DNA of 64,000 nt from Bacteroidota bacterium. Lineage in GTDB: Bacteria > Bacteroidota > Bacteroidia > NS11-12g > UBA9320. The position numbers and the translations under genes were made by a program. The stretch covers positions 1 to 64,000 of the forward strand of contig WGNA01000016.1 in NCBI GenBank assembly GCA_016124755.1. The letters are read 5' to 3'. Below the pieces are notes generated by a model. It made no database searches and was not told the DNA's origin. It saw only the letters and a list, made by a program, of their open reading frames with translations. Within the stretch, counting starts at the first letter, position 1. Every line of letters begins with the position of its first letter. Positions 23,790 to 29,423 of this stretch are shown piece after piece.

Positions 23790-24794
23790 GTGAAAATCGA
23801 TAATTCCAAATACACGTACCTGATTGATCAAATAGGTGGATTGCTGCAAAAAGGGCGAGAAAATGCCGCACAATCTGTAAACAGCATTTTAGTCCATACG
23901 TATTGGTTAATAGGCAGACACATTGTTGAATTTGAACAAGGGGGCAATGAAAAATCAGAATACGGAAGTTTTCTTTTTGACCAACTTTCTAGGGATCTTA
24001 CATACCATTATGGCAAAGGCTTTAGCAGAGCAAACCTCCTGTATATGAGAAAGATTTATCTCACTTTCCCAAAAAGTGAGACACTGTCTAACGTTTTAAG
24101 TTGGAGTCATTATGTTGAGATCTTACGCTCAGATAATGAACTGGAAATCAATTTCTATATCAATCAATGTATCCGAGAACAATGGAGTGTGAGAGAGCTC
24201 AAACGTCAGATAAAGAGCATGTTATTTCATAGATTAGCATTAAGTAAGGATAAAAAAACGGCATTAAAACTTTCTCAAAACGGTCAAGAAATTCACACAG
24301 CTGATGATATTTTAAAAGACCCGTATGTACTGGAATTTTTAAATATTCCCGACAACTATCAATACCTCGAAAATGAATTAGAACAGAAGCTTATATCAAA
24401 CCTTCAGAATTTTTTATTAGAACTGGGCAAAGGTTTCACTTTCGAGAAACGACAGTACAGGATCTCCATTAGCGGAAAACATTTCTTTGTGGATCTCGTA
24501 TTCTATCACCGCATCTTAAAGTGTTTTGTTCTAATAGATCTTAAAAGAGGAGAGGTAACGCATCAAGACGTCGGACAAATGAATCTGTACCTTAACTACT
24601 TTAAGAAAGAGATAAACACCGATGGAGATAACGAACCCATAGGAATTGTTTTAGGCGCATCCAAAGATCAAATTCTGGTGGAGTATGCAACACAGAGCAT
24701 TAGTAATCAATTATTCATTAGTAAGTACCAACTTTATCTGCCCGATAAAAAACAATTAGAGGACGAACTTCAAAAACTATTTGAGGAAAATTAA
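23790..24794 (+). CDS. YhcG-family (DUF1016) PD-(D/E)XK nuclease-domain protein
   Basis: A 334-residue protein, close to the usual family length of about 340-370, beginning at GTG. The N-terminal DUF1016 region has YWLIGRHIVEFEQ, YGSFLFDQLSRDLTYHYGKGFSRANL, LSWSHYVEIL and QWSVRELKRQI. The C-terminal nuclease part has the PD-(D/E)XK-like FFVDLVFYHR, then FVLIDLKRG with the catalytic D and K, and a later VGQMNLYLNYF. The family is found in accessory regions beside restriction or mobile genes; here its neighbours are a repeat block and an L,D-transpeptidase. No partner methylase or toxin is nearby, so its role is open. Confidence 0.92.
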   Translation: MKIDNSKYTYLIDQIGGLLQKGRENAAQSVNSILVHTYWLIGRHIVEFEQGGNEKSEYGSFLFDQLSRDLTYHYGKGFSRANLLYMRKIYLTFPKSETLSNVLSWSHYVEILRSDNELEINFYINQCIREQWSVRELKRQIKSMLFHRLALSKDKKTALKLSQNGQEIHTADDILKDPYVLEFLNIPDNYQYLENELEQKLISNLQNFLLELGKGFTFEKRQYRISISGKHFFVDLVFYHRILKCFVLIDLKRGEVTHQDVGQMNLYLNYFKKEINTDGDNEPIGIVLGASKDQILVEYATQSISNQLFISKYQLYLPDKKQLEDELQKLFEEN

Positions 24795-25581: not shown

Positions 25582-26574
25582 GTGTTTCAACGAAGTCTTC
25601 TGAATGTTCTGCTAACGTTTGTACTGTTAATTAGCATCCAACCTGTTTTGGCGCAGGATTATATCCGGTATAATCGCATTGTGAATAGAATTGATGAAGA
25701 TGTTTTAGCCGGTAATATCGAAAAAGCATCGTTGCGATTCGATACGATTTATTTGGAATACGATTTCATTTTCTCTCACCATTGTTTTAAAGCACTGCAA
25801 ATTTCGTGTGATCTAAAAGATTCTGTAAAAGCCGCGAATTGGCTTCAGGAAACCATTTTACGCGGCATACCTCTTTGGGCAATTCAAAAGAATGAAATTA
25901 CTCAAGAGGTTTTTAATTATACAAATTGTCGTTTGGTTATTAACAATTATGAGAATTTGCAGGAACAGTACAAAGCTTCTATAAATCAGAAATTAGCCAA
26001 AACCATCGATAGTCTTTTGGCGATTGATCAAAAGCGAACCGACAAAGTGAACAACGGCTTCATACCGCTTCGATACACCTGGCATTATGTGCGATGGAGG
26101 AGAAATTCCAGAAAGCAGTTCCTGATTTTAGAACAAATTATTAATAAGTATGGTTACCCGGGAGAGCGGTTGATTGGTATTCCGGAAGATAAAAACGATT
26201 CTTCAAAACTACTGAAGGACGCACTGTTCTACGGCCCGTTTTACAGGGAAAGCCGCACATATATTATGTTGATTCACTATTACAGCCGCAAAGGAAAAAA
26301 CATTGATTCCCTGCTGTTAAATGAAATTGTAAAGGGTAATCTTCCCGCATTTCAATATGGCGGATTAAACGATTTCATGTCGAGATACGGGAAAGCTGAT
26401 AATTACTATAATGTCTGGCATTTTGATCCTGACACTTCAAGTCTTTCCGAAATTAATTTAAGAAGGGATTCATTAGGTTTAAATTCTTTTGAAACTCAGC
26501 AGGCTTTGAAAAAAATTTGGATGGAAAGACGTAAAAACAAAACTGCCAATTCGGAAATCATTTTAGAATATTAA
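25582..26574 (+). CDS. Secreted protein of unknown function
   Basis: A 330-residue product from a GTG with a clear signal peptide (to VLAQ). The mature part is helical with tryptophan and aromatic-rich segments (WHYVRWRRNSRKQFLILEQI, NKYGYPGERLIGIP, YGPFYRESRTYIMLIHYY). The order LDQKR-type helix, then YGYPGE, then a histidine pair is reminiscent of DUF6624-type proteins, but the match is not certain. A TAATTTCG near-consensus -7 lies at 25570-25577. The next gene begins 4 bp after the stop. Confidence 0.75.
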   Translation: MFQRSLLNVLLTFVLLISIQPVLAQDYIRYNRIVNRIDEDVLAGNIEKASLRFDTIYLEYDFIFSHHCFKALQISCDLKDSVKAANWLQETILRGIPLWAIQKNEITQEVFNYTNCRLVINNYENLQEQYKASINQKLAKTIDSLLAIDQKRTDKVNNGFIPLRYTWHYVRWRRNSRKQFLILEQIINKYGYPGERLIGIPEDKNDSSKLLKDALFYGPFYRESRTYIMLIHYYSRKGKNIDSLLLNEIVKGNLPAFQYGGLNDFMSRYGKADNYYNVWHFDPDTSSLSEINLRRDSLGLNSFETQQALKKIWMERRKNKTANSEIILEY

Positions 26575-26578
26575 ATAA

Positions 26579-27142
26579 TTGAGACGCAAATTAATCATCG
26601 AATCGATTTGGTTGTTGGCATTGGTGCTTGCCAGCTATCTGATATGCGGATTATTGAGCGGATTTAATGGTTTTTGGCCTAAAGATTTAGAGCTATCTCT
26701 GCATGACACGTATATCATTATTAATTGGCTAGTTATTTTCATGACGCTGTTTTTGTTGCTGTCGGTTCCTGTTATTTTTCTGAGGATTATTTTTGGTTTC
26801 GGACGTTTGTTCTCATTAATTCTTCAATGTACCAGTCTAACTATAATAATTGCATTCACAGTCCACATCTTAATAACGCTTCAGCCTTTAAATCATCTCG
26901 TTTGGTTAACACCTGTTCAAAATTTGTTCAACTTCAACAACCCGGAATTTTCGCCTTCAGGCGGATGGACAGTGTATCCCCCGCTTTCTGCAACGAATCG
27001 TATAATGGTTGAACCTGAATCCCATTATTCATTGATTTCACTGGGCTTTATCCATATTTATGTGTTGATTATTTATACCGGAATGGCCATTCACAGTTTG
27101 TGGTTTTGGAATAAAAGAAATTTAAAAAACGCGTATAATTAA
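26579..27142 (+). CDS. Small membrane protein with cytochrome-oxidase-subunit-I-like motifs
   Basis: A 187-residue product from TTG, with about four membrane helices (8-27, 48-70, 76-100, 152-173). Two short motifs match heme-copper oxidase subunit I: LHDTY at residues 41-45 and GGWTVYPPLSA at 128-138. In real subunit I the YPPLS motif lies before HDTY, and HDTY is followed by the haem ligands AHFH; here the order is reversed and no AHFH is present. It is therefore not an oxidase. It may belong to a Bacteroidota family of small oxidase-like membrane proteins. It follows the gene before by 4 bp. Confidence 0.8.
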   Translation: MRRKLIIESIWLLALVLASYLICGLLSGFNGFWPKDLELSLHDTYIIINWLVIFMTLFLLLSVPVIFLRIIFGFGRLFSLILQCTSLTIIIAFTVHILITLQPLNHLVWLTPVQNLFNFNNPEFSPSGGWTVYPPLSATNRIMVEPESHYSLISLGFIHIYVLIIYTGMAIHSLWFWNKRNLKNAYN

Positions 27143-27872: not shown

Positions 27873-29423
27873 ATGAAAAAAGTCATCCGGAAATTACATT
27901 TTACTTTAAGCATTGTTATTTCTATTTCTTCCACTTTAATCGCTCAAACCGAAAACAAACCATTCGAGACCAAAGTGGAAAGTGTAACCCTTTATCATTC
28001 GGGAGCGTTGGTAAGCCGAAATGCGGTTACCAATCCCGAAGCCGGAGTTCACGAAATCACCATTCGCAATATTTCTTCGCAAACGGTTTTGAATTCTTTA
28101 AAAATCACGAACCGGGAAGTCACGATTCTGAACAAAACCCTGCTCCGCAAATTATCCGGGGAGGAAATGCAACAGCTTATCGACCGAAAGGAAATTATTA
28201 CCCGACAAATCGCACTAATCGAATCAAAATTCAAAGACGACAGTTTTATTAAAGATGTAACAGAGCTTTCTCAGATGTCATCATTCTTTTCCTCTGAAAT
28301 TCTCAAACTCCGGAAACAACTCCGGAATGCAGATTCGACCTTAAACGAAGCAAAAAAATTAGAATCCATTTCCTTAAATAACGATGACGCCGCGATTCTG
28401 AAAATTTTAATTTCGGTTGAATCCAAATTAACCAAGCCCATGCATCTCGAATACGTGTGTGGCGGAATTGGCTGGAGTCCTGGTTACGAAATCAATGTTA
28501 ATTCCTCGTCCGATAAAAACATTTCCGTTAAATATTTAGCCAAAGCCATGAGCCAGACAGGTGAAGACTGGAACGATGTAATCATTCATTTGTCGTCGTC
28601 TTTCCCGTTGGAAATGCCGGCACAATTGCCTAAACCAAACGGTCCGTGGACGCTCACCGGAAATTATGACCGGGGAAGACCTATTAGTACATCATCCGGA
28701 TATAACCCGGAAAATCAAACCGTATCTCGGTTGGAAGGCATTGCGTATCATGAGATTCGGGTTCCGGCATTTTTGGAAAAGCGCACGTTAAAAGGGCGTT
28801 ATTCAATTAAATCAAACAGTTCTCTTTTCATCTTCCCGATTCTCAACACAGAACTTCCTGCCCGGTATTATTTCTTCGGATATCCGTCTATTGATCAGGA
28901 TGTGTATCTCGTTGCAGAAATTACCGGCTGGGATACGATGGGGTTTATCGACGGAGTGGCGAACATTACGTACAATGGCAATGATGTTGGAAAATCTGTA
29001 TTGCGATTCAGTGATTATACCGATACGCTGATGCTCGCAGTGGGTCGCGACAATAAAGTATTTATGAAACGATCCGAAATTGCAGATCAGAAATATTTCA
29101 AACAAACTTTAACCGGTAAAAAGAGATTGATGACGTATGCTTACCGAATCGAGGTTAAGAACAATAACTCCTTTCCGGTTCAATTTCAGTTTGCCGAACA
29201 AGTACCGGTTTCCCAAACCAAATTGGCTTCCGTGGAATTAGTAAAAACTTCCGGTGGAAATGTGGATGCTGAAAACGGTGAAATCACCTGGATTTTAAAC
29301 CTCAAACCCGGTGAATCCGCAATTAAGGAAATCATTTATACTCTTGAAATGGATGGAGACTACCGGTTAAATCTCGGCACGATGAACAAAAAGTACCGGG
29401 TACTTCATTGCCCCGATTTTTGA
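27873..29423 (+). CDS. DUF4139/DUF4140 (mucoidy inhibitor A-like) secreted protein
   Basis: A 516-residue secreted protein (signal to LIAQ). The N-terminal DUF4140 domain includes KVESVTLYHSGALVSR and ends in a coiled coil (about 90-165). The C-terminal DUF4139 part has LEYVCGGIGWSPGYEI with the family's W.P.Y pattern, TGEDWNDV and later ITWILNLKPGES plus the closing Y. Related proteins include MuiA-type proteins. The molecular function is unknown. A hairpin follows 40 bp after the stop, overlapping the next promoter region. Confidence 0.9.
   Translation: MKKVIRKLHFTLSIVISISSTLIAQTENKPFETKVESVTLYHSGALVSRNAVTNPEAGVHEITIRNISSQTVLNSLKITNREVTILNKTLLRKLSGEEMQQLIDRKEIITRQIALIESKFKDDSFIKDVTELSQMSSFFSSEILKLRKQLRNADSTLNEAKKLESISLNNDDAAILKILISVESKLTKPMHLEYVCGGIGWSPGYEINVNSSSDKNISVKYLAKAMSQTGEDWNDVIIHLSSSFPLEMPAQLPKPNGPWTLTGNYDRGRPISTSSGYNPENQTVSRLEGIAYHEIRVPAFLEKRTLKGRYSIKSNSSLFIFPILNTELPARYYFFGYPSIDQDVYLVAEITGWDTMGFIDGVANITYNGNDVGKSVLRFSDYTDTLMLAVGRDNKVFMKRSEIADQKYFKQTLTGKKRLMTYAYRIEVKNNNSFPVQFQFAEQVPVSQTKLASVELVKTSGGNVDAENGEITWILNLKPGESAIKEIIYTLEMDGDYRLNLGTMNKKYRVLHCPDF

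Follow-up and report, generated by a model that had tools for sequence, protein, structure and literature searches.

A small membrane protein of Bacteroidota with two oxidase subunit I words in reversed order: a candidate redox-inactive miniature of COX1

The small protein encoded at positions 26579 to 27142 of the window, which is the whole 64,000-nucleotide stretch of Bacteroidota DNA analysed here, belongs to a new family of four-helix membrane proteins that is covered by no curated family and that carries two words of haem-copper oxidase subunit I (COX1) in the reverse of their usual order. With a probability of about 0.4, it would be a redox-inactive miniature of COX1 that binds what the outer face of COX1 binds, most likely subunit II or assembly factors.

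The open reading frame, its words and its relatives

The features referred to in the text are the following.

25582..26574, + strand: upstream gene of 330 amino acids, no family match above cut-off
26579..27142, + strand: ORF of the small protein, 187 amino acids, TTG start, four-helix membrane protein with COX1-like words in reversed order
26591..26647, + strand: predicted TM1, residues 5-23 (hydropathy)
26702..26713, + strand: HDTY word, residues 42-45, corresponding to bovine COX1 H368-Y371 at the start of helix X
26726..26782, + strand: predicted TM2, residues 50-68 (hydropathy, hhalign); would match COX1 helix X
26819..26875, + strand: predicted TM3, residues 81-99 (hydropathy, hhalign); would match COX1 helix III
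26960..26992, + strand: GGWTVYPPLSA word, residues 128-138, corresponding to bovine COX1 loop III-IV (T127, Y129, P130, P131, L132)
27035..27091, + strand: predicted TM4, residues 153-171 (hydropathy); would match COX1 helix IV

The bovine numbering of both words follows section 18 of PMC12901375, with Y371 numbered after an excerpt of the same paper. The TTG start is backed by an N-terminal E..W that is kept among the relatives. It lies 4 nucleotides behind the stop codon of the upstream gene, and a shared transcript of the two genes is possible. A sequence-only reading of the window had pointed to HDTY and GGWTVYPPLSA in reversed COX1 order, and the COX1 of the window's own genome bears this out; there, YPP is followed by HDTY about 250 residues later, whereas in the small protein YPP stands 87 residues behind HDTY. 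All 11 letters of GGWTVYPPLSA are identical to that COX1. Taken alone, the window protein matched no Pfam, NCBIfam, PHROGs or PADLOC model. A PDB search with it returned only gustatory receptors (best E 0.0068), which were dismissed as hydrophobic chance matches. Other genes of the window encode a YhcG-type PDDEXK nuclease with a strong match to the PADLOC candidate PDC-S02 (23790-24794) and, two genes downstream of the small protein, a DUF4140/DUF4139 protein (27873-29423).

Sixteen relatives share the reversed order of the words; they are four-helix proteins of 136-178 amino acids and are restricted to Bacteroidota. In 97 genomes from the order of the window, its own genome being one of them, single-protein searches revealed no full-length relative besides the window protein; in 395 genomes across the phylum they revealed one other, namely in G431 (E 2.4e-6, 33% identical), where IDINVHDTYFVI is followed by GGWTLYPPLSA; the G431 protein as query led to G514 and G529. 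Out of 395 genomes from the order of G431, a four-protein profile matched 7 at E <= 1e-8 (G431 included), five of which retain both words in some form, while G917 and G768 are without YPPL. The reversed order was also sought with an exact DNA pattern, which is blind to CAC codons and to other spacings and does not cover the window's genome; it found nine stretches in 84,980 species (one genome each), all from Bacteroidota and each with a single ORF containing both words. The hosts are Gelidibacter (2), Psychroserpens, Flavobacterium, Pedobacter (4) and one Chitinophagaceae MAG. Viral contigs gave no relative by protein search and 0 matches to the pattern; neither plasmids searched with the window protein nor phages searched with the G431 protein gave a match.

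The comparison set (n = 17) is composed of the window protein, the proteins of G431, G514, G529, G906, G439, G909 and G804, and the nine from the DNA pattern; G917, G768 and the relatives found later by profile stand outside it. All 17 members have the two words together, in partly changed form in G514, G909, G804 and G924; the set is partly selected by the words themselves, 9 of the 17 having been found through a word pattern. The 16-row alignment contains seven invariant columns, all inside the words.

The 16-row profile of the family, A5, yielded eight full-length matches at E 1e-24 or better in 151 genomes of the family of Pedobacter. Five of these are new: G1078, G1030 and G1065 have both words, G1010 has FDSY in place of HDTY, and G1017 has an internal stop. 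In the 395 phylum genomes, four full-length matches reached 1e-27 or better, one of them being the window protein and another that of G258, which has lost both words. G226, G330, G318, G1045, G388 and G471 gave small and weaker matches, in which YPPL or both words are missing; the remaining rows in both genome surveys were mostly COX1 itself. Since at least one of the words is gone from these seven relatives and from G917 and G768, the pair is typical of the family but not universal. Their conservation among homologues, on which the sequence-only reading had made its case depend, accordingly extends to all members compared but not to several relatives found by profile.

Small membrane proteins with HDTY and without YPPLS are found in other Bacteroidota (L091:3770-4111, L090:3727-4233, L153, L202) and form a larger pool of COX1-like small proteins. 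Those of G117, G623, G318 and G1045 resemble the window family in their small size, membrane nature and DI(N/S)xHDTY or a near form of it, but differ from it by the missing YPPLS word. In paper searches covering titles and the beginnings of abstracts, no protein like that of the window was found to be named.

Similarity to COX1 and the question of descent

Ten relatives (nine with both words, one with HDTY only) were scanned with PF00115, the Pfam gathering cut-off of which is 34.8 bits. Seven of them matched at E 1.3e-3 or better (best 1.4e-7), the highest score of 31.1 bits staying under the cut-off; the window protein gave no match. TIGR02891 was matched by six of the ten at E 8.5e-5 or better, under the NCBIfam cut-off. 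The COX1 model matches come in swapped order, with TM1-2 on the helix IX-X region and TM3-4 on the III-IV region. In a comparison of profile A5 with PDB sequences, 18 distinct COX1 were on top at E < 1e-3 (best 1.4e-8), the best of them again matching in two stretches of swapped order, and hhalign of the family against COX1 gave E 3.6e-10 and 2e-8. An HMM comparison with COX1 had been proposed with the sequence-only reading. Against a profile of the 17 hosts' own COX1, 17 of 17 small proteins matched in two domains with 15.4-36.9 bits; the window protein, with its two stretches in reversed order, reached 15.9 bits. The decoy maxima were 10.7 bits (1700 shuffles), 0.3 (17 reversed relatives) and 11.1 (267 other ORFs), and the top one of the 267 ORFs sits in L146, the locus of a relative without the words. 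Compared with the decoys, the small proteins are significantly similar to both regions of COX1, in swapped order.

With the words masked (13 + 12 residues), no significant COX1 match was obtained (best E 0.3 with hmmsearch and 0.43 with hhalign), the hhalign match lying on the expected diagonal. In a diagonal-rank test, the flank after HDTY ranked 6/575, that after YPPLSA 8/575 and that before GWT 46/574. Lower ranks were obtained for three other flanks (91, 171 and 175 of about 580) and, ahead of GWT, for two stretches that were longer or lay farther off (101/555 and 323/575). The word matches reach 14 letters, as in DSTLDINVHDTYFV, which is common to the G906 protein and its own COX1. Between the permuted derivative and the convergence offered by the sequence-only reading, permuted descent from COX1 with heavy drift is favoured and would be quite probable, given the scores over decoys. 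It is unproven versus mimicry, because its support comes from about 25 word residues and masking removes the significance.

Subunit I of the haem-copper oxidases has 12 transmembrane helices; two His residues of helix X are the ligands of haem a3 and haem a, and the CuB histidines lie on helices VI-VII. At the helix X positions which we take to be those of the haem a and haem a3 ligands, the window protein has no His, in agreement with the earlier statement that the haem ligands are missing; of the 17 members, eight have a His at the position for haem a and one has it at that for haem a3. By PF00115 scan and hhalign, no part of the small protein aligns to the CuB histidine region of COX1. Because haem and copper ligands are missing, redox function has presumably been lost.

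The likeness to aa3-type subunit I (PF00115 COX1; TIGR02891 CtaD/CoxA) consists in HDTY and GWTxYPPLS with their residues of the P-side water cluster and in the predicted location of these words on the same membrane side. The small protein differs from it in having four predicted helices where COX1 has 12, in being without a full haem and copper ligand set, and in presenting GWTxYPPL after HDTY in 17 of 17 cases, whereas in COX1 it stands before HDTY. As its defining features fail (cut-off, helix count, His ligands, CuB region, word order), the protein would, judged by its sequence, not be a member of the haem-copper oxidases. What had been announced as a new family member is a new family, outside the one to which it had been assigned.

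The outer COX1 pocket, the host oxidase and the genomic place

For the oxidase, a large P-side water cluster including Mg has been described, to which 15 tabulated residues of subunit I contribute (PMC12901375, section 18, Table 1), among them T127, Y129, P130, L132, D364, H368 and D369, and at which E198 of subunit II coordinates Mg (PMC12901375). Seven of the 15 fall in the two words. These represent distant parts of COX1, which come together in the enzyme at a single outer water/Mg pocket between subunits I and II. The equivalents of H368 or D369 are replaced in G514, G909 and G804. In CoxII of the 17 hosts, the position of the bovine Mg ligand E198 is occupied by Lys (16/17) or Gln (1/17), and the CuA motif is mostly C-N/A-K-I-C; the textbook Mg site may be absent from these hosts' oxidases. 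CoxII of the window's genome (G000:C12, L111:8181-9977) has 598 amino acids and an N-terminal CxxCH and reads as a cytochrome c-CoxII fusion, surrounded by what by reading is an apparent full cox operon.

Four transmembrane helices are predicted by hydropathy in 15 of 15 full-length rows of the family alignment. Lys and Arg per protein amount to 2.6 in the N-terminus, 0.5 in the HDTY loop, 3.5 in the middle loop, 1.5 in the YPPLS loop and 3.5 in the C-terminus; because of this distribution (positive-inside counts), both words should be on the periplasmic side, as in COX1. AlphaFold gave a weak model of the window protein (pLDDT 62.9) and, for a Gelidibacter relative, one with pLDDT 71.4 in which residues 36-47, with the HDTY word, form a hairpin and not a helix start. 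PDB fold searches with both weak models found no match at E <= 0.001 and no COX1 fold; such models would speak neither for nor against a COX1 miniature.

A full COX1 is present in 17 of 17 genomes of the compared members. Six columns of the words vary among the hosts' COX1; there, agreement with the own COX1 is found in 61 of 102 cells versus 41.2 +- 4.5 in shuffled pairings, 0 of 10000 shuffles being as high, with relatedness not taken into account by the shuffles. One example is the S in LSLHDTY of the window protein and in DISLHDTY of its COX1, another the SV that follows YPPL in Pedobacter; in the Chitinophagaceae protein, no such preference is seen for its own COX1. The share of identical word codons is 0.43 with the own COX1 overall and 0.27-0.51 with others. 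Recent gene conversion as the source of word matching was ruled out by the codons being no closer to the own COX1.

The dN/dS values were 0.18-0.43 in nine of ten pairs, the tenth being not computable, and they indicate purifying selection on the family. Whether neighbours are kept among relatives had been another point of the sequence-only reading. Within genera this is the case, the place being constant in Pedobacter (4 of 4 loci), close to a YpdA-like oxidoreductase, and in Gelidibacter (2 of 2 loci), close to ftsX (gene names by reading), but no cox gene was seen beside the small protein in the nine loci inspected.

Several other observations were made at these loci. In G431 (L094:6951-7385) and G514 (L092:3327-3761), a 144-amino acid membrane protein, which may be a partner of the relative, follows directly with overlapping stop and start. 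Around the G529 relative, L093:3365-6068 contains a run of small ORFs, one of them with a cytochrome c-like CxxCH, and by reading looks like a cassette-like variable region. A broken COX1-like stretch with four stops in the same genome (G529:C19:29907-30359) is perhaps a decayed COX1 copy.

Proposed role and competing explanations

For the COX1 miniature, the following scenario is proposed. The helix IX-X region of an aa3-type COX1 would have been fused, in swapped order, to the loop III-IV region taken from another copy, and only the outward-facing words would have been retained, that is, one side of the water/Mg pocket against subunit II. The resulting four-helix protein with its periplasmic words would present a half-site, onto which the usual partner would dock, either CoxII, which carries the CuA domain, or a factor for the assembly of CuA or COX1. 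Docked in this way, the small protein would act in the assembly of the aa3 oxidase, whether as a placeholder, a chaperone or a modulator. Partner and role, both of which we infer, are put forward tentatively. The scenario draws on the COX1 matches in reversed order, the shared P-side pocket, the charge-based topology, the tracking of the host COX1 and the dN/dS values; it is weakened by the relatives in which words are lost, by the replaced H368 or D369 equivalents, by the outcome of the masking and by the lack of a cox gene next to the protein in the loci inspected.

Alternatively, the words might stem from COX1 but by now be structural only, forming a hairpin and a rigid Pro-Pro turn in a protein whose job is unrelated to the oxidase. 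The persistence of relatives without YPPL or without both words as similar membrane proteins, the missing linkage with cox genes, helices diverged past recognition and the hairpin at residues 36-47 of the better AlphaFold model would fit; however, all seven invariant columns are in the words, seemingly more than a turn requires, and the words track the host COX1 at variable positions, which leaves this reading rather doubtful. Convergent or acquired mimicry, by which an unrelated small membrane protein would have evolved both words in imitation of COX1, agrees with the tracking of the host and with the confinement of every significant similarity to the words, but it is improbable, as the matches of up to 14 letters, the flank ranks of 6/575 and 8/575 and the His at the haem a position in 8/17 suit descent better.

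A stand-alone divalent-metal or proton/water site would consist of a half-site closed in a homo-oligomer and binding Mg or another metal. The H368 and D369 equivalents, which belong to the Mg-containing cluster of CcO (PMC12901375), are kept in most members and would supply it; yet one or the other is replaced in the three genomes named above, and with CoxII of the hosts lacking the Mg-coordinating Glu, the real oxidase may not use the site. An own metal site is quite improbable, and less likely than a COX1 half-site offered to CoxII or an assembly factor. Decaying, functionless COX1 fragments, which the eroded words of G514 and G804, the missing standard in-frame start codon of G529 and the internal stop of G1017 might suggest, are very improbable in view of the dN/dS values, the reading frames intact in most genomes and the place conserved within genera.

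In its most far-reaching form, the COX1 miniature would be a new oxidase partner, permuted and redox-dead, that replaces COX1 at the COX1-CoxII interface in assembly or in the tuning of aa3 and is inherited vertically in parts of Bacteroidota, in step with the host COX1; as a whole, this form is speculative and somewhat unlikely. Few membrane proteins are as strongly conserved as COX1. If the proposal is true, its outer pocket would have a binding role separable from catalysis, and the small protein would offer a simple handle on the joining of CoxII to COX1 and on the needs of the P-side water cluster, in a phylum in which CoxII, in the 17 genomes examined, is without the textbook Mg-coordinating Glu.
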